Shown here piece after piece: positions 1 through 34,567 of a stretch of DNA of 64,000 nt. Numbering within the stretch: position 1 is the first letter of the stretch; every line of letters starts with the position of its first letter. The DNA lies in IMG/VR virus record IMGVR_UViG_3300023179_000094, positions 1-64,000 of that record. The stretch is one strand, 5' to 3'. The translations under genes were made by a program, and so were the position numbers. Under the pieces are notes generated by a model. That model did no database searches and had not been told where the DNA came from. It saw only the letters and a list, made by a program, of their open reading frames with translations. This DNA is from a virus.

Positions 1-1916
1 CTGGATCATCCGGTTCTTCAGGATCGTCAGGATCATCGGGTTCTTCTGGATCATCGGGTTCTTCTGGATCATCTGGTTCTTCAGGATCATCGGGTTCTTC
101 TGGATCATCGGGTTCTTCTGGATCATCTGGATCATCTGGATCATCTGGATCATCTGGATCTTCTGGTACATCAGGTTCTTCTGGAACATCAGGTTCTTCT
201 GGATCCTCTGGTTCTTCTGGATCATCAGGTTCTTCTGGAACTTCTGGTGTCACTGGAGCATCTGGTACTTCTGGTACTTCGGGATCTTCTGGATCATCTG
301 GTACTTCTGGATCTTCAGGAACTTCTGGATCTTCAGGAACTTCTGGATCTTCAGGAACTTCTGGATCATCCGGTTCTTCAGGATCGTCAGGATCATCTGG
401 TTCATCAGGATCATCTGGTTCGTCTGGTTCTTCCGGATCTTCAGGATCATCTGGGTCATCAGGTTCTTCTGGATCCTCCGGTTCTTCAGGATCGTCAGGA
501 TCATCTGGTTCTTCTGGATCATCGGGATCTTCTGGATCATCTGGTTCTTCTGGATCATCGGGTTCTTCTGGATCATCGGGATCTTCTGGATCATCGGGTT
601 CTTCTGGATCATCCGGTTCTTCTGGGTCATCTGGTACTTCTGGATCTTCAGGAACTTCTGGATCTTCAGGAACTTCTGGATCATCCGGTTCTTCAGGATC
701 GTCAGGATCATCGGGTTCATCAGGATCATCTGGTTCGTCTGGTTCTTCCGGATCTTCAGGATCATCTGGGTCATCAGGTTCTTCTGGATCCTCCGGTTCT
801 TCAGGATCGTCAGGATCATCTGGTTCTTCTGGATCATCGGGATCTTCTGGATCATCTGGGTCATCTGGTACTTCTGGATCTTCTGGAACAAGAGGAACAT
901 CTGGTTCATCGGGTTCTTCCGGAACATCAGGTTCTGTCACCTTATCTGGAACTACTGACAATGGTGTTTTAACCCTAAATGGTTCTGCTCCTAATGTATC
1001 TGTTGAATCGAATATAACTTTTTCTTCCCCGACTTTAACTCTTTCTGGAGCTCCATCAACAACATTAGGCGGAGGTCAAATTTATCTTGCAAATTCAACA
1101 TCAAATAGAATAGAGTTTGTTCCTTATCCTAATGCATTGGCGGGAAATGGTCTTCCTTCTTTAACTAATGTTTCCACCGGAGAAAAGATAACATTATGGT
1201 CTGCTATTAATGCTTCTAATGTAAACTACGCCTTTGGTACATATCCCCTCTCTGGAAGACTTTGGTATTCTGTTCCACAGGCAACCTCTTCTTTTGTTCA
1301 TGCTTTCTACGGGGGAACAACAGAATTATTTAGGATTCAAGGTGATGGACAAATTCAATTAACGGCAGGAACTGTTTCGTTACCTTCTATCTCTGCTGGT
1401 TTAAATTCCACAGACACCAACACCGGAATTTACTTTCCGGCTGCCGACACAATTGGATTTGTTGAAGGTGGTGCAGAAGCAATGAGGATAGACTCTAACG
1501 GAAGAATCAATCTTCTGGCAGGATCTGCAGCTAATCCGATTTTGAACGCTGGTTTAAATTCTTCAGACACCAACACCGGAATTTACTTTCCGGCAGCTGA
1601 TTCAATCGGATTATCTGTTGGTGGTGCTACCGCTGGTGTTATTAATACCACAGGATATGGAATCCAAACTGCTTCTCCTTCGGCCTGGATACATTTATCA
1701 TCTACACCATCAGCCTCTAAATGGATAAGATTTGATGCTTCTCGTAATGCTGCAGCACCCCCCGAAACTAATGCAGGCGCACCTGATACTGGTATAGGTA
1801 CTAATGGTGCGGTAAATAAGTACCTCCAAGAACCAGATGTTTGGATGGAAGTTATACTTGATTCGGCTGGTAAAGGTGGTGCTGTAGTTTTAATTCCTTG
1901 TTACTTACCGGGTTAA
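1..1916 (+). CDS. Collagen-like tail fibre protein (5' end outside window)
   Basis: The reading frame that starts at base 3 is open from the window edge to the stop at 1914-1916, so the gene begins upstream. The first ~930 bases encode an almost uninterrupted Gly-X-Y tract dominated by GSS and GTS triplets. This is followed by a mixed domain with two copies of a unit containing TNTGIYFPAAD (51 residues apart), a pattern common in phage fibre and tip proteins, and a C-terminal domain of about 80 residues. Collagen-like Gly-X-Y tracts form trimeric rods in phage fibres. Nearly every X/Y position is Ser or Thr, so the rod is an unusually rich O-glycosylation substrate, and three glycosyltransferase genes follow within 5 kb. 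Long open frames in the other phases and on the opposite strand over 247-972 are by-products of the repeat. The fibre role is inferred; the repeat is directly visible. Confidence 0.85.
   Translation, partial: GSSGSSGSSGSSGSSGSSGSSGSSGSSGSSGSSGSSGSSGSSGSSGSSGSSGSSGTSGSSGTSGSSGSSGSSGSSGSSGTSGVTGASGTSGTSGSSGSSGTSGSSGTSGSSGTSGSSGTSGSSGSSGSSGSSGSSGSSGSSGSSGSSGSSGSSGSSGSSGSSGSSGSSGSSGSSGSSGSSGSSGSSGSSGSSGSSGSSGSSGSSGSSGSSGTSGSSGTSGSSGTSGSSGSSGSSGSSGSSGSSGSSGSSGSSGSSGSSGSSGSSGSSGSSGSSGSSGSSGSSGSSGSSGTSGSSGTRGTSGSSGSSGTSGSVTLSGTTDNGVLTLNGSAPNVSVESNITFSSPTLTLSGAPSTTLGGGQIYLANSTSNRIEFVPYPNALAGNGLPSLTNVSTGEKITLWSAINASNVNYAFGTYPLSGRLWYSVPQATSSFVHAFYGGTTELFRIQGDGQIQLTAGTVSLPSISAGLNSTDTNTGIYFPAADTIGFVEGGAEAMRIDSNGRINLLAGSAANPILNAGLNSSDTNTGIYFPAADSIGLSVGGATAGVINTTGYGIQTASPSAWIHLSSTPSASKWIRFDASRNAAAPPETNAGAPDTGIGTNGAVNKYLQEPDVWMEVILDSAGKGGAVVLIPCYLPG
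325..860 (+). repeat. Duplicated ~220-bp block inside the Gly-Ser-Ser tract
   Basis: Bases about 325-545 recur, almost identical, at about 640-860 with a 315-bp (105-codon) offset, including the irregular codon pattern around GGTTCTTCCGG (426 and 741). The whole 1-930 tract is itself a degenerate 9-bp repeat. An in-frame duplication of this kind suggests length change by recombination or slippage. Confidence 0.8.
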
Positions 1917-1919
1917 TTT

Positions 1920-2480
1920 ATGATAACTGATCCTCAAATAATTCAAAAAATAAAAAATAGCGGAGCTATGGTTATAACCGTTGATTTGGAAGATTTTAAG
2001 AAAAAAATAAAGGGATATCACCACCGAGGTGAAAATTACACATTACCTGAAAATTTTTTTGTGTCAAAAGAAAAAATTTCACAATTAAGATCAGAACCTC
2101 CCCCACAAATAAATGTTCCAACAAAAATAGAAATTAAGATATCGGAAGGAAAGGGAATGGGAGTTTTTGCAACTCAAAAAATTTTGAAGGGAGAAATAAT
2201 TGAAACTTGCTACCTATTAAAAATACCCAAAGAAGGTGATCTTCTCACTGATTATAGATTTCTTTATCCAAAAAGAACACTGTCTGAGTATGTAATTCCA
2301 CTTGGGTATGGATCTATTTATAATCATTCCAATTCACCAAATGCTGATTGGATAGACCATCCCGAATATAAAGCTTTCAATTTCTTTGCTTTGAAAGATA
2401 TAGAAATCGGAGAAGAGATATGTGTTTATTACGGGGGTGAAGATTATTGGAATTCTAGAAAAAAAAATAACATAATATAA
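1920..2480 (+). CDS. SET-domain protein (putative lysine methyltransferase)
   Basis: The 186-residue product has a C-terminal SET fold signature: a GKGMGVFA segment near residue 78 (the G-x-G start of SET), an NHS motif in NHSNSPNA where the SAM-binding pseudoknot forms, and a GEEICVYYG segment with the late catalytic Tyr. SET proteins transfer methyl groups from S-adenosylmethionine to lysine side chains. The first ~65 residues are not recognised. The gene starts 3 bases after the fibre stop, so it is probably co-transcribed with the fibre, which raises the possibility that its target is a virion or host surface protein. The substrate cannot be read from sequence. Confidence 0.8.
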   Translation: MITDPQIIQKIKNSGAMVITVDLEDFKKKIKGYHHRGENYTLPENFFVSKEKISQLRSEPPPQINVPTKIEIKISEGKGMGVFATQKILKGEIIETCYLLKIPKEGDLLTDYRFLYPKRTLSEYVIPLGYGSIYNHSNSPNADWIDHPEYKAFNFFALKDIEIGEEICVYYGGEDYWNSRKKNNII

Positions 2481-2492
2481 ATTATAAAAACT

Positions 2493-2801
2493 ATGGCCAT
2501 TCAAGTTACAGGACTTTTTAAAAGTCCAACATCGAATCTCATTCACGAGTCTCCTTTATTGAAAATTATTGCACATCTTTCTTATAAAGGAGATTTAATG
2601 GTGGATCTTTTTGTTACCTCTTCTGATGGAATTTGTCGAGATACAGTGGTTTACCCCAATTTGAACAGAGAGGCATTAACTTTCAATGCCAATATTTCTG
2701 ATCCTTATGATCGGTTAATAAACGGGTTGGAAACTTTTCTTATAACGGAACTACAAACTTCAAATTCTATTAATTCCACTTCTACTTTCAGCAGGGTATG
2801 A
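2493..2801 (+). CDS. Hypothetical protein, 102 aa
   Basis: A small open frame that begins 12 bases after the SET gene and overlaps the next gene by 4 bases (ATGA), which is typical of translational coupling. The product has alternating hydrophobic and polar residues suggesting a beta-rich fold, with no signal peptide or membrane segment. No family is recognised. Its position suggests a fibre accessory, chaperone or structural role. Confidence 0.6.
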   Translation: MAIQVTGLFKSPTSNLIHESPLLKIIAHLSYKGDLMVDLFVTSSDGICRDTVVYPNLNREALTFNANISDPYDRLINGLETFLITELQTSNSINSTSTFSRV

Positions 2802-3064
2802 TTACAACAGATTCAACACAGCAAACAATCACCTCCGAAGAATTAAATAAAATTCAGGATTTGAAATCCACCGGTGAAAAATTTATAATTGAGTTTGGGT
2901 CTTTAGAATTGGAGATGTTGGTTCTATCTCAAAGAAAAAGGGATTTGGAGGATAAATTCATTAAATTCAAAATCGATGAAAAGAACTTCATGGGAATGAT
3001 GGATTACAAATACGGAAATGTTAATTTGGATATAGAAACAGGAATCCTTACTCCTAGAAATTAA
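2798..3064 (+). CDS. Small coiled-coil protein, paralogue of 4302-4592
   Basis: An 88-residue predicted helical protein. Its N-terminus (SEELNKIQDLKS) and C-terminus (YGNVNLDIETGI) match those of the product of 4302-4592 (SEELEKVQSLRN and YGEGQLDFNTGI), so the two are paralogues. The two copies flank the lone minus-strand glycosyltransferase gene. No function is recognised. The shared 'YG-x-x-x-L-D-x-x-T-G-I' tail suggests a conserved docking segment. Confidence 0.65.
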   Translation: MITTDSTQQTITSEELNKIQDLKSTGEKFIIEFGSLELEMLVLSQRKRDLEDKFIKFKIDEKNFMGMMDYKYGNVNLDIETGILTPRN

Positions 3065-3066
3065 TT

Positions 3067-4212
3067 TTAATTCAGAAGTTCGTGATAAACTTCTGCCATT
3101 TTTTCTCCAGCCGAAGACCATGTATATTTCTGGCATGTTTTTCTTCCCTGCTCTCTCAAATAATCTTTTCTTTCTTCCGATAAATTCAAGAATTCTAAAA
3201 ATCCCTGTTCGATTCCTTCTACAGTGGGATCAACAAAAATAGAATTTTCTGGATTGACAAAATCGGATAACCCATCTCTTCTGGAAGAAAGTAAAACGCA
3301 ATTAGAGGCCATCGCCTCTAAGGCAACCAGTCCAAATGGTTCGTGAACAGATGGCATGATAACTCCATCGGCATCGTTCAATACATCAATTTTTTCTGAA
3401 CCGTGTTTTGGGCCCAAATAAAACATGTTCTTTTTCCCTTCCTGAAGTTTTTGATCCAAAAGTGTATTGCACAATAAATCTCCCCCGTCGGGAGAACCAA
3501 TGATCCAAAGTTCAATGCCGTCTGGGATATTGGCTTCCAATAATTTATCCACTCCCTTCATCTCGCAAAACCGTCCGATATAAACAATTTTATTTTTTTT
3601 CTTTTTGGGATTTGGGTTGTTTGATTTCCATTTTTGAAGGTCAATTCCATTTGGGACCAAGGACATCTTGGACGAAAATTCTGGAAATATATCGAGATAA
3701 AATTTAGATATGGTGATAATTCGATCGGACCATCTCAAAAATCCAGTTTCCATTTCCAATAAAGTTTCTTGAATTGTTTTTCCGTCTTTTGTTGTTGGAT
3801 CAAGGGCAATATTCAAATTCCTGTGGATCTGACCTCTTATTGCCAAATTTAAAGAGCACACCAAAGGAACATTCAAGTGATTAGACAAATGTCCACCGGG
3901 CATGTACACCGGCCAATCGTATGCGTGCACTAAATCTGGTTTTGGCATACCCAGTGATGTCACAAAGAAATTAATTTGGTGTGCCAAATTGAACACAAGA
4001 GGGTTTATATTTCCCCCGTTTGTTGGAACAAAACTCGGAAAAATTTGTTTGGTATTTGGAAATTCAAAACCAGAAGAAAGATGGGGAAAGCAAATGGTGT
4101 GTAATTCAAATTCGGAACTCAATTCATCGTGCAAGGCTAAATATTGATAGCCTAATCCTCCCATAGGTTTTTCCAATCTATCTGGAATTAAACTTAAAAT
4201 TCTTTTTTTCAT
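3067..4212 (-). CDS. Glycosyltransferase, GT4-like (GT-B fold)
   Basis: A 381-residue protein on the minus strand. The N-terminal half has a GGLGYQYLALHDEL segment typical of the glycine-rich acceptor loop. The C-terminal half has KIVYIGRF, then MPSVHEPFGLVALEAMA, the E-x7-E signature of GT4/glycogen-synthase-like enzymes that binds the nucleotide-sugar donor. This is full length for the family. It is the only convincing minus-strand gene in the window and sits tail-to-tail, 2 bases away, against the gene ending at 3064. It probably transfers a hexose or related sugar; donor and acceptor are unknown. The surroundings (fibre, two more transferases) suggest virion or surface glycan work. Confidence 0.85.
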   Translation of the reverse strand: MKKRILSLIPDRLEKPMGGLGYQYLALHDELSSEFELHTICFPHLSSGFEFPNTKQIFPSFVPTNGGNINPLVFNLAHQINFFVTSLGMPKPDLVHAYDWPVYMPGGHLSNHLNVPLVCSLNLAIRGQIHRNLNIALDPTTKDGKTIQETLLEMETGFLRWSDRIITISKFYLDIFPEFSSKMSLVPNGIDLQKWKSNNPNPKKKKNKIVYIGRFCEMKGVDKLLEANIPDGIELWIIGSPDGGDLLCNTLLDQKLQEGKKNMFYLGPKHGSEKIDVLNDADGVIMPSVHEPFGLVALEAMASNCVLLSSRRDGLSDFVNPENSIFVDPTVEGIEQGFLEFLNLSEERKDYLREQGRKTCQKYTWSSAGEKMAEVYHELLN

Positions 4213-4301
4213 TCTTCCATTTGAACTTTTATGAATTAAAAAATAAAAATTTCAAAACAGGGATGAAATAATTACCCAATTTCAAAATAAAAGAATTTGC
4301 T

Positions 4302-4592
4302 ATGGGAAATCAAATTAAATTAAGTTCAGAAGAACTAGAAAAGGTTCAATCTCTAAGAAACGAGGCTCGTGAAAACGTTGACAAAATAGGGCGCATGAAC
4401 ATCCAACATCATTTTCTGACCGAAGAAATCAGATTTGTTGAAGAACAACTTCATTCTTTATATGGAGAAACGTCGGATATCAAAAAAAGAGAACAAGAAT
4501 TGGTGAACAATATTGTATCTAAATACGGTGAAGGGCAATTGGATTTCAACACCGGAATTTATTCCCAAAACCAAGATGAAAAGCCCAACTGA
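4302..4592 (+). CDS. Small coiled-coil protein, paralogue of 2798-3064
   Basis: A 96-residue highly helical, charged protein. The ends are similar to those of the 88-residue protein at 2798-3064, with the same SEEL start and YG...LD...TGI tail. The middle is longer and has a stronger heptad character. Its last 17 bases overlap the start of the next glycosyltransferase. Function unknown; duplication is evident. Confidence 0.65.
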   Translation: MGNQIKLSSEELEKVQSLRNEARENVDKIGRMNIQHHFLTEEIRFVEEQLHSLYGETSDIKKREQELVNNIVSKYGEGQLDFNTGIYSQNQDEKPN

Positions 4593-5637
4593 TACCCTGC
4601 GGAGAACAAAATATCACCTTCATAGAATTTTAAGTTCTATTGAAAATTCTATCCTCGAAGAATCTGGAAATAAACCCAGAATTCTTTTTGTTGCTCCCCA
4701 CCTTTCAACTGGTGGGATGCCTCAGTATCTTTATAAGTGCATTGAGAAACTTTTGCCTGAAGGAGAAATTTATTGTGTAGAATACAATAACCTATCAGAT
4801 GATTTTGTAGTTCAAAGACAAAGAATACAAAATTTATTGGGGGAAAATTATTTTAGAATAGACACGGAAGACAAAAGTGAATTTCTAGAAATTGTGGAAA
4901 GGGTTTGCCCAGACGTCATTCACTTCCAAGACTTTGTGGAATTCTTTGTTGGTGATGATATTTGTCGAAAAATATTCGCCCCAGAAAGACCTTGGTTCAT
5001 TTTTGAAACGTGTCACTCTTCAAATGTTAAAATTTTGGACAAATTCTGGGCTCCTGATAAATTGGTGATGGTAAATAAATGGATGACCGAAGTTTTCAAA
5101 AGTTCTGGTTTTGAATTGGATATCTTCGAATATCCCATAGAAGATTTTATCGGAGTTGGAAAAGAAAGTGCCAGGGAACAACTTGGTTTAGACCCAAACA
5201 AAAAACATGTTATTAACATTGGTCTTTTCACCCCCGGTAAAAATCAAGGGGAACTCATGGAATATGCCAGAATACTAGAAAATGAACAAATAGAATTTCA
5301 TTTCATTGGTAATTTGGCGGGTAACTTTCAAGAGTATTGGGAGCCTCTGATGAAGAATGTTCCAAGAAATTGCAGAATTTGGGGGGAAAGACACGATACT
5401 GACCTATTTTATGAAGCAGCCGATTTGTTTGTTTTCTCCTCAATTTGGGAATTGAACCCGATTGTTATAAAGGAATCTCTTTCTTGGAATTTACCCATAT
5501 TAATGAGGAGATTGCCATCTTACATGGACGACTATGACGAAACCCCCTTAGTTCATTTTTATTCAAACCAAGAACCTGTGACTGATCATGAATACAATGT
5601 TGAACTAATTCGAAAAATTTTGAATTTATCATCATGA
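4576..5637 (+). CDS. Glycosyltransferase (GT-B, GT4-like)
   Basis: I chose the ATG at 4576 over the upstream start at 4513, because the latter lies deep inside the preceding gene. The resulting 353-residue protein begins MKSPTDTLRR. It has an N-terminal Rossmann segment (RILFVAPHLSTGGMPQYLYK) with the GG loop, and a C-terminal donor-binding region around NIGLFTPGKNQ and FSSIWELNPIVIKESLSW, in which the E-x7-E pattern is retained as E...E. It overlaps the upstream gene by 17 bases and the downstream heptosyltransferase by 4. Probably part of the same glycosylation module; specificity unknown. Confidence 0.8.
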   Translation: MKSPTDTLRRTKYHLHRILSSIENSILEESGNKPRILFVAPHLSTGGMPQYLYKCIEKLLPEGEIYCVEYNNLSDDFVVQRQRIQNLLGENYFRIDTEDKSEFLEIVERVCPDVIHFQDFVEFFVGDDICRKIFAPERPWFIFETCHSSNVKILDKFWAPDKLVMVNKWMTEVFKSSGFELDIFEYPIEDFIGVGKESAREQLGLDPNKKHVINIGLFTPGKNQGELMEYARILENEQIEFHFIGNLAGNFQEYWEPLMKNVPRNCRIWGERHDTDLFYEAADLFVFSSIWELNPIVIKESLSWNLPILMRRLPSYMDDYDETPLVHFYSNQEPVTDHEYNVELIRKILNLSS

Positions 5638-6815
5638 AAAAAAGTGGGATAGAAATTTACAGGAATATTACCAAAAATAAAAACGTACACGTTCCTGAAC
5701 AAATCCAATTTCAATTTTCTTATGACTATTCTCCAAAAATAGATTTGAAGGGAAATAATCCAAAGAGTGAAAGAAATTTAAAATTTATTGATTCCACCAC
5801 TTCGGAGTGTGTTCACGAAAGTACTTTGAAGCCTGGTCATTTTACCTCCCTTTTTCGAAAATGGTTTACCCCCTGGTTAGTGGAAGGTTATGATCGTGAA
5901 AATAAGGTTTGGTCTTTAGATTTCGAGTCTACTTTGTTTGGGGGAAAAATTTTGATATCAATAGATTCTTCTTCATTAGGAGACACAATTGCATGGTTAC
6001 CTGTGATTGATCAACTAAGAAAAAAATACAAGGCACAATTAATTGTTACAACATTTTGGAACGAAATTATGTCACACTTTTTCCCTCAAATTAAATTTTC
6101 ACATCCTGGATTTAGAGATCCATCTGCCAATGCGGTGTTTGGGGTAGGATGGTACGAAGAAGACGATAGGAACATACACAGACGTGATCCGAGATCAATT
6201 TCTTTGCAACAAGTTGCAGGTGACTTGATTGGTGTCGAAGTGAATTCGGATATTTTACCTTCTCAAATTCCAGGATGGCTGGAAACAACCAAATCGAGGT
6301 TTGAAGGAAAATATGTTTGTATTGGCACCGAGTCTACTGCGAATGCAAAGCATTGGCATTATCCGGGAGGTTGGCAAACTTTGGTCAATTATCTTAAATC
6401 GATTGGATATGAGGTGGTGGTGATTCACAGCCAACAAAATACTTTGGATGGAGTTATTGATAAAACTGGAACTATAGACATGACAGATAGAATGATAGAT
6501 TTATATCATGCAGATTTTTTCGTCGGTATTGGATCTGGTTTATCTTGGCTGGCTTGGGCTTTGAGAAAACCAGTGGTAATGATTTCTGGATTTTCTTCTC
6601 CACATTGTGAATTTTCTCATTTAAATTATAGAGTCATTAACTCCGATGTGTGCCATGGGTGTTTCAACGACGTCAGACACAAATTCGATCGGGGAGATTG
6701 GAATTGGTGTCCTAGACTTAAGAACACAGAAAGGATGTTCGAGTGTACAACAAAAATCACCCCTGATATGGTGATTTCAAAAATCCAAAATTTAATATCC
6801 GAACAGAAATTGTAA
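5634..6815 (+). CDS. TibC/Aah-type protein O-heptosyltransferase (GT9-like)
   Basis: A 393-residue protein. ILISIDSSSLGDTIAWLPV near residue 103 is the GDT..A.P signature of ADP-heptose:acceptor transferases, and KHWHYPGGWQTLVNYL plus GYEVVVIHS match the strand-loop-strand O-heptosyltransferase group. The C-terminus carries four cysteines, C340, C343, C359 and C371, spaced C-x2-C-x16-C-x12-C. In the TibC family such cysteines form an iron-binding finger, used by dodecameric enzymes that heptosylate serines on autotransporter adhesins with ADP-heptose. The gene overlaps the preceding transferase by 4 bases. A phage copy next to a Ser-rich fibre suggests that the fibre is the acceptor; that link is inference. 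Confidence 0.85.
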   Translation: MKKSGIEIYRNITKNKNVHVPEQIQFQFSYDYSPKIDLKGNNPKSERNLKFIDSTTSECVHESTLKPGHFTSLFRKWFTPWLVEGYDRENKVWSLDFESTLFGGKILISIDSSSLGDTIAWLPVIDQLRKKYKAQLIVTTFWNEIMSHFFPQIKFSHPGFRDPSANAVFGVGWYEEDDRNIHRRDPRSISLQQVAGDLIGVEVNSDILPSQIPGWLETTKSRFEGKYVCIGTESTANAKHWHYPGGWQTLVNYLKSIGYEVVVIHSQQNTLDGVIDKTGTIDMTDRMIDLYHADFFVGIGSGLSWLAWALRKPVVMISGFSSPHCEFSHLNYRVINSDVCHGCFNDVRHKFDRGDWNWCPRLKNTERMFECTTKITPDMVISKIQNLISEQKL

Positions 6816-6834
6816 CCTCTGTTAGAGATTTGGT

Positions 6835-6842
6835 GATATATA
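6835..6842 (+). promoter_or_regulatory. Putative T4-type late promoter box GATATATA
   Basis: GATATATA followed by C, 36 bases before the ATG at 6879. This is one of a recurring set (see the entries at 12649, 18788, 23619, 25945 and others), resembling the T4 late promoter TATAAATA. Confidence 0.45.
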
Positions 6843-6878
6843 CAAGAAAAGTCTTCCTTTTCGAAGTAATCGCCTTAC

Positions 6879-9428
6879 ATGTCAGCCATTCCCCCTAACA
6901 AAGCTATCTTTACTGGACTTCCCGTATATAATGGGAATGGTCAACAGAGAAATTTATCGGATCCTAGATATCAATATCAGGACGATTTACCCAATACTGC
7001 CAAGGTTCAAGAGACAAGCACAGATAATCTTTACGGAACAACCGGTGCTGCTTTGGCCAGAGCAATTCAAATAGGTTGCAATGGTTATCACACGGTTTTG
7101 GCTTCAAATGGAACCTATTATTATGCTCCTTGCCAATCGCAGGAATGGCTAATTGAAAGGTTGGCCCAGTTAGACTCTGCCCTGAATTTTACCTATATCG
7201 GAAACTACAGAGTTCTGAGTTATGATCGTCCTTTTTATTATGTTAGTTCTTTCAATGGATGGATTATTGATTCAGCTTCATCTTTAGAGGGATATAGTGT
7301 GGATTTGAATACCACATCAAACGCAGTTGTATCCAATGGTATTGCAATTGATTTTAGGTATTCCATTGATGGTGAAACTTGGTCTCTTTGGGTAAATATG
7401 GGGTTTGCAACAACGGGATTACAAAATTCCTATGAGTCAGGGGAAGGAGCAGAAGTATTCACACTACAATTGGATCCTAGTAAGCCATTTTATCCCGAGT
7501 TTAGATTCACGTCTGTTGTTGTAAATCCCGACGGGAGTATAGCCTATCAATCAGAAGAACCAATCAGTCCAAATGTAGTTATAGTGAATTTCGATTTGAA
7601 TTTAACTTATGACGATAATGTGGCAACTGGCCCTGATAATTTAGTAATTAGAAACCCAGTTCCTCAATGTTCTCCTGAACAATCAAACCGCCCTGTGGTA
7701 TTTAACGAGTGTGGACCTTTCACATTCAATCCTTATAACATTAATAAGGCAATCAATCTTTACAAAGATCTAAGTTTAATTGTCAACAAAATGTTTGGAT
7801 TTGAAACCAATTACTATTCTGTTCAACCTCAGTCCAGATCAAAAGACGTGGTACTCAAAGAATGGACTTTGTATGACGTTGTGGAAGAAAGATGCGTTAA
7901 AGTGATGGTTCCGCAAAACCAATTTCCTGACAATAAACCCAACTATGATCCATTTGGCATTTCTTTTGAAGAGCCATTCGAAATACACATCGACAAGGTA
8001 TATTTTGAAAGTCTTTTTGGTCGTGGTTCACAACCTCGTAAAAGGGATATTATATATTTTCCGTTGACCAACAGAATTTATGAAATTAATTCGACTTATT
8101 TATTTCGCGATTTCATGTATTCGCCCATTTTTTTTAAAATCGAATTGAAAAAATATAACCCAAAGTCCAACACATACTATAGAGATCCTGCCTATAAAGA
8201 AGAACTCGACGGAATCGCTTTAAATTCTCAAAAATTGTTTGGAGCGGAAACTGAGGCTCAGGAGGAATTAATCACCAAACCACAACAATATGTCACGACC
8301 ACGAGCGATCGAGGGACAGACCCCACCCGATCGTACGTGTACGAAAAACTGCCCATTGTAAGTTACGATTTGAACAACAACTGGACTATCGTATTTAACA
8401 ATTATTATGATTTATATGATGCTTTTCAATCTAATCCAGAATTTGTATTCGAACCGTATAAATATAGAAATGCTGTTAGATATTTAACTACCCCTAAATT
8501 AGATTCGGATGGAGAAATAGCTTTTACCTGCTGGTTTTCAATTAAAAATTATGTAAACGAAAATTCTCTAACTAAAAAACCCTATCCTCCTATCCCGATG
8601 GCACAGGAAACGGTAACCACAACAAGAATTGTTTACAACACTACTCCTTATAAACATGGACTTTCTCCATGGATTGGCTATGCTGAAAATCCGGATGGCT
8701 ACGTTGCAATAAAATCAGATTCAAATCACTCTGGTGGATTTCAGGTGGCTTCTGTGATTGACCAATTTAAATTTTCCGTAGTCAATCCTAATTTACCTTT
8801 TTCATTAGATACTCCTACCCTTAAGATGCAAAAAGCACAGGCTAGAAATTTGATTGCCGGGGATTATATGGACCCAATTGATGGACCACAAGGTCTTAGA
8901 GTGGATTTAATTTATTCTGGTTCACAAGAACCAAACAACACGAACTTTCTTCAGGAGGGTAGCATTCAAATTAATTTAAATGATTTTGTCTTTAATTCGA
9001 AGCTCCAATTTGTGCCAGAGATCGGTGAATGGTATGCCTTGGTTGTTAATATTTCTAATAAATACCATCAAATGGGTGTTAATATGTGGAAGATGAGTTA
9101 TGATGTGAATAACCCACAAGAACAATCCTCTAATCTGATCCCGGTCCATGAAGATTTTAGAACTTTGTCCCAAACATATACTTTCGACTTACCTAAAGAT
9201 ATTGTTACTAATCCAGCCAACCCTCTATATGGAACGGACAACAATGCCTATAGGATATATACTTCGCCGGTTTTGCTTTCCAATATTCGAATTTTCAAAT
9301 CGATGATAGATATCAATAAACAATCGATTGTGTTGAACCAAAACATCGTGAGGGATGCACAGCTGGCTCACATTATCGACAACGCCAAACCAACTTTGGA
9401 CATTCCTAAAATCCCCAGAAAGGGTTAA
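6879..9428 (+). CDS. Large virion structural protein, 849 aa (neck/baseplate class unassigned)
   Basis: A long beta-rich protein placed directly before the terminase genes, where T4 has its neck genes 13-15. The middle contains a stretch (QPRKRDIIYFPLTNRIYEI, near residues 387-405) weakly reminiscent of the 'GD-I-Y-F-P...E-I' pattern of T4 neck protein gp14. The C-terminal third (AFTCWFSI ... GEWYALVVNIS) looks like a concanavalin/LamG-like sandwich. The N-terminus has no signal peptide. A GATATATA box lies upstream. I am confident it is structural, but not which part of the particle. Confidence 0.6.
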   Translation: MSAIPPNKAIFTGLPVYNGNGQQRNLSDPRYQYQDDLPNTAKVQETSTDNLYGTTGAALARAIQIGCNGYHTVLASNGTYYYAPCQSQEWLIERLAQLDSALNFTYIGNYRVLSYDRPFYYVSSFNGWIIDSASSLEGYSVDLNTTSNAVVSNGIAIDFRYSIDGETWSLWVNMGFATTGLQNSYESGEGAEVFTLQLDPSKPFYPEFRFTSVVVNPDGSIAYQSEEPISPNVVIVNFDLNLTYDDNVATGPDNLVIRNPVPQCSPEQSNRPVVFNECGPFTFNPYNINKAINLYKDLSLIVNKMFGFETNYYSVQPQSRSKDVVLKEWTLYDVVEERCVKVMVPQNQFPDNKPNYDPFGISFEEPFEIHIDKVYFESLFGRGSQPRKRDIIYFPLTNRIYEINSTYLFRDFMYSPIFFKIELKKYNPKSNTYYRDPAYKEELDGIALNSQKLFGAETEAQEELITKPQQYVTTTSDRGTDPTRSYVYEKLPIVSYDLNNNWTIVFNNYYDLYDAFQSNPEFVFEPYKYRNAVRYLTTPKLDSDGEIAFTCWFSIKNYVNENSLTKKPYPPIPMAQETVTTTRIVYNTTPYKHGLSPWIGYAENPDGYVAIKSDSNHSGGFQVASVIDQFKFSVVNPNLPFSLDTPTLKMQKAQARNLIAGDYMDPIDGPQGLRVDLIYSGSQEPNNTNFLQEGSIQINLNDFVFNSKLQFVPEIGEWYALVVNISNKYHQMGVNMWKMSYDVNNPQEQSSNLIPVHEDFRTLSQTYTFDLPKDIVTNPANPLYGTDNNAYRIYTSPVLLSNIRIFKSMIDINKQSIVLNQNIVRDAQLAHIIDNAKPTLDIPKIPRKG

Positions 9429-9439
9429 AAAAATGACTT

Positions 9440-10225
9440 ATGCCAAGACGTAAACCAAAGCCAGAGAAGGTTGTCCAGGAGAGAATTAAGGCAAATTTAG
9501 ATTCCATTCTAATGGAAGAAAATTTGGAAATTGAATCGTTAACTGTAGACAACCTTCCCCGTATGAAAACTACCGAGGTTATGGATTTTCAGGTCCAAAT
9601 CCAGTCTACCGGTACAGACTCTAGAGATCTTCTAGAATCATTGGTTAAATTTTATGTGGATCAAAATCTAATTGATGAATCAGAATTCCTTGAATACAAG
9701 AAGAAAATAGATGCCATGAACGTTGGGTCGATGATGCTTCAAATAAAAACTGCACAACACGCCATCACGAAATTGGTAGAAGAAATTGATTTAGGAAGTG
9801 CTTCTGCTCGAATGTTCGAGGTTCTTGCACAATTACAGGGACAAATTATGCAAATGTCGAAGGATCATCAAACGTATCTTGAAAAGACCGAAGCCAGCTA
9901 CAAGAATTTGAGAAAAGAATTGGAGATGAAAGCTTCATCGGGTTATGTTCCCATGCAACAAAATCAAGGTTCGGACACTTCTTTTTCCCCTAGTTCCCCT
10001 CCACCTGCTCAAGGAACAAACTCTGCACTGAAGGTTAGAGGAACTAAAAGTCTAATGGAAGGACTTAGGGACATTTTGGGTGCTGAAATTCAGGACGTGA
10101 AAGTAGAAGAAGTGAATGAAAATGCGGTGGTTAATGCCAGACAAAAAGCAAGTCAAGATGCCTCTAAAAATATAAGTTTTGAAAGCGAAGGGACTTTTGA
10201 AATAGACGATGATTTATTCCAATGA
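9440..10225 (+). CDS. terS: Terminase small subunit (T4 gp16-like)
   Basis: 261 residues, mostly helical, with a central coiled-coil region (residues ~85-175) flanked by a basic N-terminus (MPRRKPKPEK) and a disordered Pro/Ser-rich linker. It is immediately upstream of, and overlaps by 4 bases, the large terminase gene, the canonical 16-17 order. The segment SRDLLESLVKFYVDQNLIDESEFLEYKKKID resembles gp16-type proteins of T4-like phages. The small subunit recognises DNA and stimulates the packaging ATPase. It is longer than T4 gp16 (164 aa), the extra length being the C-terminal acidic tail. Confidence 0.75.
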   Translation: MPRRKPKPEKVVQERIKANLDSILMEENLEIESLTVDNLPRMKTTEVMDFQVQIQSTGTDSRDLLESLVKFYVDQNLIDESEFLEYKKKIDAMNVGSMMLQIKTAQHAITKLVEEIDLGSASARMFEVLAQLQGQIMQMSKDHQTYLEKTEASYKNLRKELEMKASSGYVPMQQNQGSDTSFSPSSPPPAQGTNSALKVRGTKSLMEGLRDILGAEIQDVKVEEVNENAVVNARQKASQDASKNISFESEGTFEIDDDLFQ

Positions 10226-12588
10226 GCAAACATGAAGATGATTCCTTAGATTCCAATTATTGGTCAACCAAAAGGGTTGATGACCTTATGAGGAAGGTTG
10301 AGGATGAAGGTTTAGATTACAAATCTGTTGATAATCCATTTCACGACGGAGACCCTTCTTTAAAAAGATCCAATTTGCTTTGGGAGTATACACCAGAGGA
10401 ATTACAAGAAATGCAAAAATGTGCCTTAGATGTGGTACACTTTGCCCAGCACTGTCAGGTTATGACCGATGATGGTCTCCAGTACATTCGATTGAGAGAC
10501 TATCAAGAATCTGTATTAAGGGAATACCAGAATAATAGATTCAATGTTTTTCTTGCACCTCGTCAAGTTGGAAAATGCCTTTTACCTACATCGGTGATTC
10601 TAAACGAAGAAAATAAAAAAATACCTATATTCAATTTTAAAGAAAAAAATAATAATTTTTTCAATTTTTCCAAAAGTTTACTTTATTTCATATATTGGTT
10701 TTTCATAAAGAAAAAATCTCATAAGAAAAAAATTTTAAAATTAATTTCTTTTATTGAAAAATTCCAATTTAAAAATTATGTATTCGACCAAGACGATCCT
10801 GAAAAAAAAGTAATCAACGAATATGAAATCTGGGAAGAAATTTTATCAGACAGTGGCTATGTTACTGCACATAAATATTTAGAAACACAGCCTTATGAAG
10901 TTTGGTTCTTAGAGTTAGAAAACGGTAAATCTTTAGAATGTGCGGACCTTCATATTCTCTTTGACGAAAATTTCAATGAGGTTTTAGTTAAAAATCTTGT
11001 TTTAGGAAATTATGTAATGACTGATGAAGGTCCAAGCAGAATAACATATATTGAAAACTCTTTAATAAAAGTTTCAATGGCGGATTTAAGTGTTTTGCAT
11101 CATAATCATAGATATTACAGCAACGGGATTCTTTCTCACAATAGTATCACCTCATCAATTATTTTGGTGTGGTATTTGCTTTTCAATCACGATAAAAACG
11201 CAATGATTTTGGCTAACGTTGGATCAACTGCCGAAGAACTCATGGATAAAATCAAGGCTATTGTGAAAGGTTTGCCTTGGTTTTTGAAGCCAGGTATGGT
11301 TGTGAACAACGTTATGTCCATGAAATTCGATAACGGATGTAGGGCTATAGCCAAAACCACAACGAAAACAACCGCAATTGGTTTTACAATTCACTTTTTG
11401 TACATGGATGAGTTTGCACACATCCATCCGAATTTTATTGAGTCTTTCTTCCGCTCTTCTTATCCCACTGTTTCATCATCTAAGGTCTCGAGGATTATCA
11501 TTACTTCTACCCCAAATGGAATGAATAAATTTTATGAGATTTATCAAGGAGCACTAACGGGGGAAAATTCATTCAATCCTGTTCGAGTTGATTGGTGGCA
11601 AGTTCCAGGTAGAGACGAAGAATGGAAAAAACAGGAAATCGCCAACCTTGGTAGCGAAGAGCTTTTCAATCAGGAATACGGAAACCAATTTCTAAGTTCA
11701 ACCTCATTATTGCTTGGATCGAATGAGCTGAAGAAAATAAAATCAAATGAATCTGAATATGTATGGAGAGAAATAGATGTTCTGAGTGATCTAGGAATTT
11801 TCTATGAAAATTTCAGATGGCACCCAAAATTTTCTTTAGATTCGGCATCTTTAGATGATAAAAATTTTGTTTTATCTGTCGATCTTGCGGGGGGAGGCAG
11901 AGGAGATTTTACGGTTATCAATATTTTTAGAGTTGTTCCTTTGCCCAAAAAATTAATTGAAAGCATAGATGATTTCAAGGACGAAGGTGATTTTTTTAGT
12001 TTACTCCAGGTTGGGGTTTTCAGAGACAATGGTATTCAAATTGAAGATATCAAGAAAATGCTTGAGGCCTTGATTTTGAATGTATTCAATAAAGAAAGGC
12101 TGACCGTTCTACTCGAAATGAATTTTAGAGGTGAGCTCCTATTAGACAAATTGATTTCCAACGATGAGATTTCTCTGGATATTTTTTTACACACCAAACA
12201 CACGGAGTCTGCACGAACTGCAAAACCTGGCATCAAGTACAACGAAAAAAACAAAATGAAGTACTGTGAAATGTTGAGGTCATCGTTCAGACAAAACAGA
12301 GTGATTGTAAACGAAAAAGCATGGACAATTCCAGAAATTTTTTCCTTTGGGTTAAACAATAGCGGAACATATTCATCCCAATCTGGACACGACGATGTCG
12401 CCATGACTTTGGTGAATTTGTCTGCACTTTTTGAAACAACAGCTTTCTACGATTTGATTGGGGATCTCTACGATCGGATGGACGATGACTATAGAAAATT
12501 GATTGAATCCAAATTGAATGACAAGGAATCCGACGGAAAAACTAAAGAAGGAAGCTTCTATAATTCATTTAGTAAGCTTATGTCATGA
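10222..12588 (+). CDS. terL: Terminase large subunit (T4 gp17-like) with embedded intein
   Basis: 788-residue precursor. Extein features: an N-terminal ATPase with Walker A split as RQVGK (residues 114-118) then SITSS (308 onward), Walker B LYMDEFA with D396-E397, and a C-terminal RNase H-fold nuclease starting at LSVDLAGGG (D554). Removing the 189-residue intein gives 599 residues, close to T4 gp17 (610). The enzyme pumps DNA into the prohead through the portal and cuts the concatemer. It overlaps the small-subunit gene by 4 bases. Unspliced precursor should be inactive, because the P-loop Lys and the following Ser are 189 residues apart. Assignment is secure. Confidence 0.95.
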   Translation: MSKHEDDSLDSNYWSTKRVDDLMRKVEDEGLDYKSVDNPFHDGDPSLKRSNLLWEYTPEELQEMQKCALDVVHFAQHCQVMTDDGLQYIRLRDYQESVLREYQNNRFNVFLAPRQVGKCLLPTSVILNEENKKIPIFNFKEKNNNFFNFSKSLLYFIYWFFIKKKSHKKKILKLISFIEKFQFKNYVFDQDDPEKKVINEYEIWEEILSDSGYVTAHKYLETQPYEVWFLELENGKSLECADLHILFDENFNEVLVKNLVLGNYVMTDEGPSRITYIENSLIKVSMADLSVLHHNHRYYSNGILSHNSITSSIILVWYLLFNHDKNAMILANVGSTAEELMDKIKAIVKGLPWFLKPGMVVNNVMSMKFDNGCRAIAKTTTKTTAIGFTIHFLYMDEFAHIHPNFIESFFRSSYPTVSSSKVSRIIITSTPNGMNKFYEIYQGALTGENSFNPVRVDWWQVPGRDEEWKKQEIANLGSEELFNQEYGNQFLSSTSLLLGSNELKKIKSNESEYVWREIDVLSDLGIFYENFRWHPKFSLDSASLDDKNFVLSVDLAGGGRGDFTVINIFRVVPLPKKLIESIDDFKDEGDFFSLLQVGVFRDNGIQIEDIKKMLEALILNVFNKERLTVLLEMNFRGELLLDKLISNDEISLDIFLHTKHTESARTAKPGIKYNEKNKMKYCEMLRSSFRQNRVIVNEKAWTIPEIFSFGLNNSGTYSSQSGHDDVAMTLVNLSALFETTAFYDLIGDLYDRMDDDYRKLIESKLNDKESDGKTKEGSFYNSFSKLMS
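10576..11142 (+). other. Mini-intein (189 aa) in terminase Walker A
   Basis: The insert begins with Cys119, directly after the P-loop Lys, and ends with the His-Asn dipeptide of SNGILSHN (residue 307), followed by Ser308 as the +1 nucleophile. Block B-like ADLHILF carries the conserved splicing His, and the penultimate block resembles the F/G motifs (HHNHRYYSNGILSHN). No LAGLIDADG or HNH endonuclease is visible. A lysine-rich, very A+T-rich stretch (10621-10680 has 8 G/C in 60) sits where an endonuclease would be, suggesting a degenerated or minimised element. Confidence 0.9.
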
Positions 12589-24692: not shown

Positions 24693-24694
24693 AA

Positions 24695-25372: not shown

Positions 25373-25373
25373 A

Positions 25374-25916: not shown

Positions 25917-25920
25917 AAAA

Positions 25921-25944: not shown

Positions 25945-25952
25945 GATATATA
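25945..25952 (+). promoter_or_regulatory. Putative late promoter box GATATATA
   Basis: GATATATAG immediately follows an 8-bp-stem hairpin and is 24 bases before the ATG at 25977. Confidence 0.5.
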
Positions 25953-25976
25953 GAACGTAAAAAAATTCAAAACAAA

Positions 25977-28810: not shown

Positions 28811-28868
28811 ATGAAACTAACCTCGAGGTTAAAACTAAGATTCTAAGTTAGCAATTTTTTAACATTTA

Positions 28869-30313: not shown

Positions 30314-30343
30314 TTTTGTCTATAAAACCAAATTTCTGACTTC

Positions 30344-31969
30344 ATGGCAGGATTTAACGAGAACCCAAACACCAACCCTATATTCCAAAGAATTAGGGAC
30401 TCGATCAAAAATCTGAGCAATTTCGGATTAAGATATGGAGACATGGTGGTCAAAAATTCACAGGCGATTGGTACCACAGAGGCAGAATTTTTAAAGAAAG
30501 GCCCGATTGAAGATGAAACTACACTTTTCTCTTTAGGTAGACAAGATACGACTACCAGACAGTACGTTTCATATTTTGATAAAGACTATGCAGGAAAAAG
30601 AGATTATCTAAGAAAATTTTCTTTAAATCCTGAGATTGAATACATTTTGGATACGGTCTGCGACGAGGCAATTTCCTACGATGGATTTAATTTTTTCGCA
30701 TATCCAGCCTTCTTAAATATTATTGGAATTAAAAAAGATGTTATAGATAAAATTGATTCGACGTACAAAAAATTGTACGACATGTTTGGTTTCAATGACG
30801 ATATTTCTGCATGGCAATATTTCAGACAACTTCTTGTTGATGGTTTCGTTGCTTTCGAAATCGTATACGATGACAAGGGAAAAAATATTATTGGTTTCAA
30901 AGAGCTAGACGCAACCACCCTTATGCCTTCCGTAGAAAAGCAAAAAGATGGAACCTTCTTAAATGTTTGGTATCAATATCCTAAGGACGAAAGAAAAAGG
31001 AGGATGCTTTACGATTCTCAAATCATTTATCTTTCTTACGCCAAAGGTAATTCTGTTTCAAGAGTAAGTTATACTGAAAGATTAATTCGTCCGTACAATG
31101 TTCTGAGGATCATTGAATACACTCGTGTCATTTGGTCTGTGATGAATGCATCATTCCGTCTGAAAATGACAGTCCCCGTGGGGTCCAGATCACAACAAAA
31201 GGCTATGCAAACTCTTGGTGAGTTGATGTCCATATACAAAGAAGATATTCAATTCAACGATGAAAGTGGGGAACTTTCGGTAAATGGTCAGCCAAAAATT
31301 CAGTTTTACAAAAATTATCTGATGCCCAAGGGAGCTTTAGGTACTCCAAATATTGAACCACTCAACACCGCCGGACCAAATTTGAACGATCCAGCTCCAT
31401 TGGCTTACTTTTTCGACAAGTTGGTTCAAGAATCTAAAATTCCATTTTCTAGATTTCAAGGACCAGATGGTGGATCGATTGGTAAATATGCCAATGCAGC
31501 AGAAGGATTGGATAAAGAGGAAATTAGATTCGCAAAGTTTATTATGAGATTAAGATCCGTTTTTCAGGACATTCTTATAAAACCTTTGTGGATTCAATTG
31601 TGTAGAGATTTTCCACAATTGGAGAAAGATTACATGTTCAGAAGTCAACTTGGATTAACTTTTGTTTCGGATAATCCATTCAGAGTTAATCAGGAAATAG
31701 AAACGATGAACAAAAGGAAAGAATCCATAGATGCCATGTATGGATTGGTGGACGGAGAAGGGCAGCCTTTCTTTTCTTTGGGTTATTTAATTGAAAATTT
31801 TCTTGGAATGACTGAGGATGATATCAAATCCAACGAAGAAGCTAAAGAGAAGGCCAAGAATAAAAAATCGAAAGAAACTCCAGAAGGCGGAGAAGGATCT
31901 GAAGGCGGTGCTCCAGAATCAGGAACCGAACCAGGAGGATCTCCACCAGAAACAGAAACACCGGCATAA
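30344..31969 (+). CDS. gp20: Portal protein 1 (T4 gp20-like)
   Basis: 541 residues (T4 gp20 is 524). Contains the portal family segments YGDMVVKNSQAIG, AGKRDYLRKFSLNPEIEYILDTVCDEAI, WQYFRQLLVDGFVAFEIVYDD and GNSVSRVSYTERLIRPYNVLR, the last around the clip/stem region. It forms the dodecameric vertex through which DNA is packaged. The C-terminus is a Gly/Glu/Pro-rich disordered tail. A second full-length copy follows 2 bases after its stop, with the same MAGFN start. Confidence 0.93.
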   Translation: MAGFNENPNTNPIFQRIRDSIKNLSNFGLRYGDMVVKNSQAIGTTEAEFLKKGPIEDETTLFSLGRQDTTTRQYVSYFDKDYAGKRDYLRKFSLNPEIEYILDTVCDEAISYDGFNFFAYPAFLNIIGIKKDVIDKIDSTYKKLYDMFGFNDDISAWQYFRQLLVDGFVAFEIVYDDKGKNIIGFKELDATTLMPSVEKQKDGTFLNVWYQYPKDERKRRMLYDSQIIYLSYAKGNSVSRVSYTERLIRPYNVLRIIEYTRVIWSVMNASFRLKMTVPVGSRSQQKAMQTLGELMSIYKEDIQFNDESGELSVNGQPKIQFYKNYLMPKGALGTPNIEPLNTAGPNLNDPAPLAYFFDKLVQESKIPFSRFQGPDGGSIGKYANAAEGLDKEEIRFAKFIMRLRSVFQDILIKPLWIQLCRDFPQLEKDYMFRSQLGLTFVSDNPFRVNQEIETMNKRKESIDAMYGLVDGEGQPFFSLGYLIENFLGMTEDDIKSNEEAKEKAKNKKSKETPEGGEGSEGGAPESGTEPGGSPPETETPA

Positions 31970-31971
31970 TT

Positions 31972-33579
31972 ATGGCAGGATTTAACGATGATAACAGCCA
32001 GCAGCGTTCCTTTTTAGGAAATCTGTACAGAAACCTATCTAAGATTGGAAGGTTTGGTATGCAGTACGAGGATATGGTTATCCGGAATTCTCAGGCTATA
32101 GGGGCAACCGAATCTACCTTTTTCAACAACCAAGGAACGGGATTCACCGAGAATGATGCTTTCTTCTGGACTTTAGGTTATCAAGATACTAGAGTAAGAA
32201 AATACATAGCCTATTTTGACAAGGATTATCTTGGAAAAAGAGAGTTTCTAAGAAAGTTTGCTTTGAATGGAGAAATTGATTTTATTCTAGATACTTTATC
32301 AGACGATGCCATCAACTACGATGACAAAAATTTCTTTGGTTATCCGTCTTTGTTAAATATTGATTTAAAACCAGAAGTTCGTTCCAAGGTAGAAGAAAAT
32401 TTTAGAACTTTGTACATGCTGTTTGGTTTTCAACAAAGTACTCTCGCCTGGCAGTATTTCCGTCAATTTCTGATAGATGGTTTTTTGGCTTTTGAAATTG
32501 TCTACTCGACAGATGGAAAAAAAATTGTTGGTTTTAAAGAATTAGATGCCACTTCCCTTCAACCTGCAACTGAACAACAACCTAACAAAGAATTTCAACA
32601 AATCTGGATTCAATACCCAGGTGATCCCAGAATGACCAGAAAATTAAAGGCAGAGCAGGTCATTTATCTTTCCTATGCCAAGGGTAATTCCGTTTCCAGA
32701 GTTAGCTACACTGAAAGACTGATCAGATCTTATAACATTCTGAGAGTCATGGAAAATACTAGGGTAATTTGGAATGTCATGAACGCTTCATATCGTTTGA
32801 AATTTGTTATTCCCGTTGGAACCCAATCCGGACAAAAAGCTATGCAAACCCTGGGACAGCTGATGTCTCAGTATAAAGAAGAAATTCAAATTAATGATAC
32901 CTCCGGGGAATTGACTGTTAATGGTGCTCCCAGAGTACAGTTTTACAAAAATTATCTCTTCCCAGAAAAAGACGGGGAATCGCCAGACATTAACACTTTA
33001 AATCCAAATGGTCCCGATTTCAACGTGATGGAAAATGTTGTTTATTTTTACAACAAGCTAAAATTGGACTCCAAAATTCCATATGCTAGGTTCGCTGGAA
33101 GAAGTGGGCCTGCCACCTATCAAATATCAATTGACCAGTTAGAAAGAGACGAAATTAGATACGAAAAATTTGTTACACGTTTGAGATCGGTTTTTCAAGA
33201 ACTTTTGGTTAAACCTCTTTATATCCAAACTTGTTTGGATTTTCCTGCCTTGTCTGAAGATAGATCATTCAAAGTAAATTTGGGTTTGAACTTCGTTAAA
33301 GAAAATGTTTTCGAACAACTAATTGTTTTATCTAACTACACGAAAAGAACGACATTCATCACCGCATTGGGAGATATGAAACAAAAAATCGGAGAAGAAG
33401 AAGTTCCATATTTCGATAAGGAGTGGTTGATAAAAAGATGGCTTGGTTTGAGTATGGACGAATATAGAGAAAACGAAAAATTCAAAAAAGAAGAAAAGAA
33501 TCAAGCGGACAAGGCCAAAAAGGATAAAGGTGAAGAAGGAAAGGGTGGAGAAACAGATGCATCAGATTTCACGCTTTAA
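31972..33579 (+). CDS. Portal protein 2 (gp20 paralogue)
   Basis: 535 residues, paralogous over its whole length to the product of 30344-31969 (MAGFN start; YEDMVIRNSQAIGATE; WQYFRQFLIDGFLAFEIVY; SVSRVSYTERLIRSYNILR). No disruption is visible: both frames are intact and all major segments are retained, so neither looks like a pseudogene. It ends in a Lys-rich rather than Gly-rich tail. Two intact portal genes in tandem are not a T4 feature. A mixed ring, alternative portals or division of labour are all possible. Confidence 0.9.
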   Translation: MAGFNDDNSQQRSFLGNLYRNLSKIGRFGMQYEDMVIRNSQAIGATESTFFNNQGTGFTENDAFFWTLGYQDTRVRKYIAYFDKDYLGKREFLRKFALNGEIDFILDTLSDDAINYDDKNFFGYPSLLNIDLKPEVRSKVEENFRTLYMLFGFQQSTLAWQYFRQFLIDGFLAFEIVYSTDGKKIVGFKELDATSLQPATEQQPNKEFQQIWIQYPGDPRMTRKLKAEQVIYLSYAKGNSVSRVSYTERLIRSYNILRVMENTRVIWNVMNASYRLKFVIPVGTQSGQKAMQTLGQLMSQYKEEIQINDTSGELTVNGAPRVQFYKNYLFPEKDGESPDINTLNPNGPDFNVMENVVYFYNKLKLDSKIPYARFAGRSGPATYQISIDQLERDEIRYEKFVTRLRSVFQELLVKPLYIQTCLDFPALSEDRSFKVNLGLNFVKENVFEQLIVLSNYTKRTTFITALGDMKQKIGEEEVPYFDKEWLIKRWLGLSMDEYRENEKFKKEEKNQADKAKKDKGEEGKGGETDASDFTL

Positions 33580-33589
33580 ATTTCAATAA

Positions 33590-34567
33590 ATGAATTTCAA
33601 AGAATTATTTTCAACACAGAAAATTCTTGTTGTGGGTGATTCCATTTTGGATCACTATGTGTATGGAAAAGTTCACAGGGTATCTCCAGAAGCACCAGTT
33701 CCGGTTGTTCTTAAGAACAAAGAAGAATTTTTCCTGGGCGGGGCGGCAAATGTAGCACAGAACATCACGATATTCGGAGCCAATTGTACCCTGTTATCTT
33801 TGGTTGGTGATGATGAGGATGGAAAAATTTTGTTTGAAAAATGTATCGAGAAAAAAATCAACCCTATTTTTATCGAAGAAGAATCCAGACCAACAACAAA
33901 AAAAACCAGAGTAATAGGAAATAAACATCAAATTGTTAGAATTGATGTTGAAACAACTTGTGATCTATTAGAAAACTCAACTTTGAAAATTATTGAAATT
34001 TTCGACGAACAGATTCAATCTCACGATGGAGTTATTTTTCAAGATTATGGGAAAGGGTTACTTACGGATTATCTTTTAGCATCTCTAATTGAAATAGCGA
34101 AAAAATACTCCAAAAAGATTTTGGTTGACCCTAAAGAACCAGATCTTGGGCGTTATCAAGGAATCGATCTGATCAAACCAAATCTGAGTGAATTCAAGAC
34201 CATGGTGAATATCAAATCTGAAGAAGATTTAGAAATTGAACAGATTATAAATTATGCCCAATTGGTGATGGAGGAATTTGACTACCAATATTTCCTTATC
34301 ACTTTATCGGAAAATGGCATGTTATTGGTTGGAAGACATTTTTCTCATCACATCCCTGGAATCAGTGTGGATGTTGCCGATGTCTCTGGGGCAGGGGATA
34401 CCGTTTCTGCCATATTTGGATTGGGATTCTTTTCCGGTGAGAACGGTGTTTTATCGAATGATTATTTGATTGGTGTGGCAAAACTCGCTAATTTGGCAGG
34501 ATCTTTAGTGTGTAGACATTCGGGGTCTATCCCAGTAAATCCTGAAGAATTGTGGAGATCTTCCTGA
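33590..34567 (+). CDS. hldA: Heptose 7-phosphate kinase (HldA/RfaE1-like, PfkB family)
   Basis: 325 residues. Typical RfaE domain I: VVGDSILDHYVYGKVHRVSPEAPVPVV, GGAANVAQN (the PfkB family first signature), SLVGDDEDG, RVIGNKHQIVRID, and DVSGAGDTVSAIFG (second PfkB signature with the catalytic Asp). The family phosphorylates D-glycero-beta-D-manno-heptose 7-phosphate to the 1,7-bisphosphate, a step towards ADP-heptose. The adenylyltransferase half of bifunctional HldE is absent, and no GmhA, GmhB or HldD gene is in the window, so the phage would depend on host or other phage genes. It pairs logically with the TibC-like transferase at 5634. Confidence 0.9.
   Translation: MNFKELFSTQKILVVGDSILDHYVYGKVHRVSPEAPVPVVLKNKEEFFLGGAANVAQNITIFGANCTLLSLVGDDEDGKILFEKCIEKKINPIFIEEESRPTTKKTRVIGNKHQIVRIDVETTCDLLENSTLKIIEIFDEQIQSHDGVIFQDYGKGLLTDYLLASLIEIAKKYSKKILVDPKEPDLGRYQGIDLIKPNLSEFKTMVNIKSEEDLEIEQIINYAQLVMEEFDYQYFLITLSENGMLLVGRHFSHHIPGISVDVADVSGAGDTVSAIFGLGFFSGENGVLSNDYLIGVAKLANLAGSLVCRHSGSIPVNPEELWRSS

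Follow-up and report, generated by a model that had tools for sequence, protein, structure and literature searches.

The window analysed here, a 64,000-base stretch comprising bases 1-64,000 of the 71,396-base virus record IMGVR_UViG_3300023179_000094 (itself a fragment), belongs by gene content to a T4-like myophage, with two tandem gp20-type portals, terminase, sheath, tube, prohead protease and gp23 capsid. Near its left end it encodes a collagen-like fibre and a glycosyltransferase of the BAHT family, to which the protein O-heptosyltransferases TibC and Aah belong. This enzyme probably heptosylates serine and threonine residues in the repeat tract of the phage's own fibre, with a neighbouring GT4 glycosyltransferase acting in the same pathway. 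An original prediction, made from the DNA letters of the window, had proposed a module of a collagen-like fibre, two GT4-like transferases, a TibC/Aah-type heptosyltransferase and a heptose kinase. Matches to Pfam, TIGR04414 and the Protein Data Bank (PDB) recovered every one of these genes (Table 1), and comparative genomics backs heptosylation of the fibre better than the window alone.

As an enzyme the window protein belongs with the BAHTs, though its substrate sets it apart. It scores 264 bits on TIGR04414 (hepto_Aah_TibC) against a curated cut-off of 200, other BAHTs of the same clade reaching 283-330 bits, and in its match to TibC (PDB 4rap; 7e-57) the four cysteines all align, as expected for the proposed TibC/Aah-type heptosyltransferase with a cysteine finger. 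These cysteines (C340, C343, C359 and C371, aligned to TibC 339, 342, 358 and 370) are invariant across 14 aligned sequences and appear to form a TibC-type iron finger, for which iron binding is predicted. An AlphaFold model of the enzyme (14 aligned sequences) reached a pLDDT of 87 and TM scores of 0.82/0.84 to TibC 4rap. In TibC, residues D110, T226, K230, R286 and W305 have been assigned to catalysis or ADP-heptose binding (PMC4358343), and all five are matched in the window enzyme by D117, T235, K239, R286 and W305. TibC P300, which sets selectivity for D,D-heptose, is replaced by glycine, and the heptose isomer is therefore not predictable. No autotransporter family was present among the scanned window proteins, the neighbour of the BAHT being the collagen-like fibre.

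The fibre can be classed as a collagen-like protein by its unbroken Gly-X-Y repeat and its Pfam Collagen match (154 bits), any triple helix being putative; it also has PHROG tail-fibre matches. The tract, first placed at 1-930, proved to be real and to span bases 3-938 (frame 3), with 104 uninterrupted triplets, 85 of them GSS and 15 GTS, but its gene is 5'-truncated, as the left edge of the contig falls inside the tract and the N-terminus lies outside the window. The composition is unusual for collagen in consisting of GSS/GTS triplets with nearly no proline. The fibre of a near relative has 2,847 amino acids, 561 triplets and a C-terminal Peptidase_S74 chaperone domain. Such domains are borne by the full-length fibres of relatives and are typical of trimeric phage fibres.

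The link between enzyme and tract was examined in 80 viral BAHT loci, grouped into 16 clusters at 60% identity; the majority of the loci compared come from contig fragments, and loci that are related do not count as independent. Five or more G[ST][ST] triplets occurred within about 10 kb of the BAHT in 45 of the 80 loci and in 9 of the 16 clusters, against a Ser/Thr-rich tract in 0 of 99 random viral loci (Fisher test at cluster level, 1.6e-9). Conversely, among contigs of at least 50 kb, a BAHT was found in 11 of 19 chosen by a GSS tract, 0 of 17 chosen by a Gly-Pro-X tract and 1 of 14 random ones. Proline occurs in 1.3% of the triplets of BAHT-linked tracts, and several BAHT-less relatives carry Gly-Pro-X tracts at the same position. 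In the isolated Microcystis phage Mel-JY01, an open reading frame (ORF) of 199 GTS/GSS triplets lies 1.7 kb from a protein that contains a BAHT. A strict TCN/ACN DNA pattern, which skips other serine codons, found nothing in this phage despite these triplets, and zero matches with it do not amount to absence. A single-sequence query of genome_contigs returned no relatives and an alignment-based query returned 64. In the Mel-JY01 record (L599, PP395634.1), hypothetical genes on the opposite strand are annotated over part of the tract ORF at 2-3049; the 1,226-aa protein at 4750-8430, whose C-terminus is the BAHT, is named FkbM methyltransferase.

A tree of 89 BAHTs resolved two clades with 100/100 support. 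Clade 1 comprises enzymes of Negativicutes and Enterobacteriaceae, among them the best matches to the TibC/Aah model (538-556 bits for those tested), and a Gly-X-Y tract lay near none of its 52 bacterial loci. Clade 2 holds every viral BAHT found together with 12 bacterial loci, of which 11 have a G-[S/T]-S tract (Fisher test for tract presence between the bacterial loci of the two clades, 1.6e-11). Several of the bacterial tract carriers are not phage fibres, with which they have nothing but the tract in common; they are small proteins, secreted or lipoprotein-like, whose tails read GTSGTSG or GSSGSS, and in Methylobacter luteus the BAHT-tract pair sits among housekeeping genes (L409, 8863-11065). 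Three contigs from metagenome-assembled genomes with tracts (L405, L423 and L426) may be phage, and the picture is unchanged without them. The G-[S/T]-S tract was the sole common neighbour seen between the bacterial clade 2 loci and the phages. Since the clade is tied to such tracts in phages and, with different carriers, in bacteria, the fibre tract is the best candidate acceptor; together with the ADP-heptose residues of the enzyme, this linkage partly upholds the proposal that the phage heptosylates its own fibre. BAHTs paired with a small GTS/GSS protein, secreted or lipoprotein-like, were likewise noted on further gammaproteobacterial and related contigs (L400-L404, L406 and L410).

The two GT4 genes originally placed in the module fared differently. 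The plus-strand GT4 is a constant partner: it overlaps the BAHT gene by 4 bases (ATGA), and most of the 80 viral loci have a homolog of it close to their BAHT. Furthermore, in 13 distant loci the BAHT is fused to an N-terminal domain 38-43% identical to this GT4 over about 300 amino acids, and other distant phages have a different GT4 fused to the BAHT at the same place. The catalytic E-x7-E pair is kept. The model of the protein has a GT4 fold resembling many others (BshA, HepE, PglA and WaaG); a single-sequence comparison with the PDB gave no useful match, and a profile matched WaaG alone, weakly (3e-4). Thus, neither donor nor acceptor can be named from these likenesses. WaaG adds glucose onto heptose, and its likeness to the GT4 is a lead only. 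The minus-strand GT4, on the other hand, is confined to near relatives, being whole only in some loci with a BAHT identity of at least 65%. This gene and the SET-domain gene were weighed as core parts of the module but rejected, since most relatives lack them. At L040, a poly-Thr protein (TTTTTTAAGG repeats) is encoded beside a GT4-BAHT fusion, in an ORF that opens 1461 bases past the start of the BAHT match.

The kinase has HldA as its closest solved structure (4e84, 7e-51), the next best being a ribokinase (1.6e-6). It scores 313 bits on TIGR02198, below the curated cut-off of 345 (its intact phage relatives score 295-315 bits), which, with its restriction to one lineage, qualifies the proposed HldA/RfaE1-like assignment. 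Its gene follows directly after the second portal gene, away from the fibre, and stands directly behind the portal in all loci retrieved around it. Among contigs with the neck gene, it was found only alongside a BAHT (18 of 29, two of these degenerate), and in none of about four informative BAHT-less contigs that reach its position. It is restricted to one T4-like lineage and absent from distant BAHT carriers. As proof of heptose, the kinase was cut to a supporting item because there are distant carriers without it and informative BAHT-less relatives are few; its presence is consistent with a heptosylation module. The GmhA and HldC genes that the original prediction suggested seeking did not appear: the 71,396-base record, a genome fragment, has no HldC-type (PF01467) or GmhA-type (PF13580) gene, and the host would therefore supply the remaining steps.

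Table 1. Features of the window bearing on the proposed fibre glycosylation, with positions in the window.
Feature	Position	Strand	Remarks
Collagen-like fibre	3..1916	+	Gly-X-Y tract 3-938; C-terminal part 939-1916; proposed acceptor
SET-domain protein	1920..2480	+	PF00856, 49.6 bits; only in 96%-identical group
Accessory GT4 glycosyltransferase	3067..4212	-	PF00534, 75 bits
Small ORF	4302..4592	+	Precedes the GT4 in most near relatives (37-98% identity)
GT4 glycosyltransferase, constant BAHT partner	4576..5637	+	PF00534 match
TibC/Aah-type O-heptosyltransferase (BAHT)	5634..6815	+	Clade linked to Gly-Ser/Thr-Ser tracts
HldA-like PfkB-family kinase, candidate heptose-7-phosphate kinase	33590..34567	+	

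From these genes and linkages we infer what the acceptor and its sugar are, in which order the two transferases act and what the kinase does, as follows. The BAHT would transfer heptose from ADP-heptose to the hydroxyls of serine and threonine in the Gly-Ser-Ser/Gly-Thr-Ser tract, inside the infected cell and before or during fibre assembly. The plus-strand GT4 would work in the same pathway, most likely adding a second sugar to the heptose, although this step is a guess. In the T4-like lineage, the HldA-like kinase would raise the supply of precursor, with the other steps coming from the host. As to what the sugar does, the idea with most appeal is a stabilising or protective effect on the nearly proline-free fibre rod, which is reasonable because the tracts are proline-poor and a Thr-linked sugar is reported to stabilise a worm collagen. 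A more specific and tentative version, which we consider possible but doubtful, is that clade 2 BAHTs are dedicated to Gly-Ser/Thr-Ser tracts and that in phages the sugar replaces proline or hydroxyproline, making the rod stiff and protease-resistant. The occurrence of proline-poor tracts with a BAHT and Gly-Pro-X tracts without one fits this version, some of the sets having been chosen by tract type, and L365, L375 and L392 are exceptions to the contrast. Some bacterial tracts are short and belong to lipoprotein-like proteins, for which a triple helix is questionable. The earlier suggestion that glycosylation masks or tunes a receptor-binding rod found no support and is neither favoured nor disfavoured.

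Several observations weigh against heptosylation of the fibre tract. Thirty-five of the 80 viral loci have no such tract in the available stretch, where many contigs end, and the L040/L044 group has no Gly-X-Y tract within 10 kb of the BAHT. In several BAHT carriers the tracts are mostly GAQ and contain few serine or threonine residues, L392 combines a BAHT with GPT tracts, and L365 and L375 have GSS tracts with no BAHT in the contig. The residue R286, an adenine contact in TibC, is lost in several distant members, whose donor may therefore differ. Finally, tracts and transferases may co-cluster merely as residents of a variable fibre region; such co-clustering without function is disfavoured because bacterial BAHT-tract pairs exist. 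The same bacterial pairs bear on a related and fairly unlikely explanation, in which the BAHT modifies another protein, either of the virion (neck, sheath or a different fibre) or of the host surface, and the tract is a bystander in a variable region. The BAHT gene does lie immediately before the neck gene, amid structural genes, a poly-Thr or Pro/Thr-rich protein is found near some BAHTs, and the loci without a tract point the same way. However, bacterial clade members and phages share the G-[S/T]-S tract and no other neighbour seen, and the neighbours besides the GT4 differ across phage lineages.

Two further explanations concern the sugar and its destination. That the tract is glycosylated with a different nucleotide sugar, the kinase serving something else, we judge unlikely: the sub-threshold score of the kinase and its absence from distant carriers would allow it, as would the glycine at the position of P300, which governs stereoselectivity, and the variation of R286 in distant members, but the window enzyme has the full set of matched TibC residues and HldA is by far the best solved relative of the kinase. 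Phage glycosyltransferases and rfaE-type genes are usually interpreted as remodelling host lipopolysaccharide (LPS) or another surface glycan (PMC7029224), so blocking superinfection, and the BAHT fold is distantly like that of the LPS heptosyltransferases WaaC and WaaF. Nevertheless, this role for the BAHT and GT4s seems very improbable, given that the BAHT model reaches a TM score of merely 0.42-0.52 to WaaC and WaaF against 0.82 to TibC, that the enzyme has the iron finger and N-terminal beta-domain of BAHTs that modify proteins, and that its clade is tied to tract proteins.

Other features of the phage were noted in passing. The two tandem gp20-type portal genes (30344-31969 and 31972-33579) share 50% identity, and tail-tube paralogs also stand in tandem (16285-16839 and 16855-17436; 55% identity). 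At its Walker A motif, the large terminase (10222-12588) contains about 185 additional amino acids in frame (residues about 118-304); this insertion, whose ends are intein-like (GK|C ... HN|S), is absent from the 8 relatives compared and is likely a mini-intein. A gene with a prohead-protease domain (52799-54832) contains imperfect tandem repeats of 42/84/126 bases at 53769-54250. Adjoining the kinase gene, 34690-36666 encodes a protein that combines a cohesin domain with a type IX secretion sorting domain and has an apparent signal peptide, suggesting that the host is one of the Bacteroidota and that the phage encodes a secreted surface protein; it was not found beside the kinase in relatives.

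If heptosylation of the fibre is correct, a common unexplained gene pair of large aquatic phages would gain a function, a sugar-coated collagen-like rod would join the known phage fibre types, and a well-studied family of adhesin-modifying enzymes would gain a new substrate class. The family name of TIGR04414 (autotransporter O-heptosyltransferase) is probably wrong on substrate for a large sister clade. The idea is open to direct testing in the isolated phage Mel-JY01 and in cultured Methylobacter.

Separately, BAHTs, virion glycosylation and glycosylated collagens are all known, and no open-access paper was found that joins them. The open-access papers searched contained no account of such a phage system, in agreement with the original prediction, and the TibC paper does not mention phages (PMC4358343). 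TibC and Aah catalyse the O-heptosylation of serine in proteins and share with the window BAHT the fold with its iron finger, the catalytic base and the ADP-heptose residues (PMC4358343). The window enzyme differs from them in being phage-encoded and in belonging to a fully supported sister clade whose members are often fused to a GT4; TibC and Aah adjoin beta-helical autotransporters, whereas BAHTs of the window clade adjoin Gly-Ser/Thr-Ser tracts. The kinase domain of HldA/HldE provides both the closest structure and the family model for the phage kinase, although the score is under the cut-off and the record is without an adenylyltransferase. The window phage lineage may be that of the moraphages, large aquatic phages distantly grouped with T4-like phages, with predicted Bacteroidota hosts and four core glycosyltransferase families to which no role has been assigned (PMC12619734); the paper describing them mentions neither heptose nor collagen.

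For virion glycosylation, the virion proteins of mycobacteriophages bear glycans, with phage-encoded transferases implied (Freeman et al., 2023, cited in PMC12619734). These glycans sit on the C-termini of capsid and tail tube proteins, whereas here heptose is proposed on the rod of a fibre, attached by a BAHT. Bacterial collagens of the BclA type carry N-acetylgalactosamine on the threonines of their Gly-X-Y repeats. The cuticle collagen of Riftia has galactose on threonine of Gly-X-Y repeats, reported as stabilising (cited in PMC10141479). Both use other sugars and enzymes, and the proposed phage system would share with them the modification of threonine within Gly-X-Y, here in a tract that is nearly proline-free.

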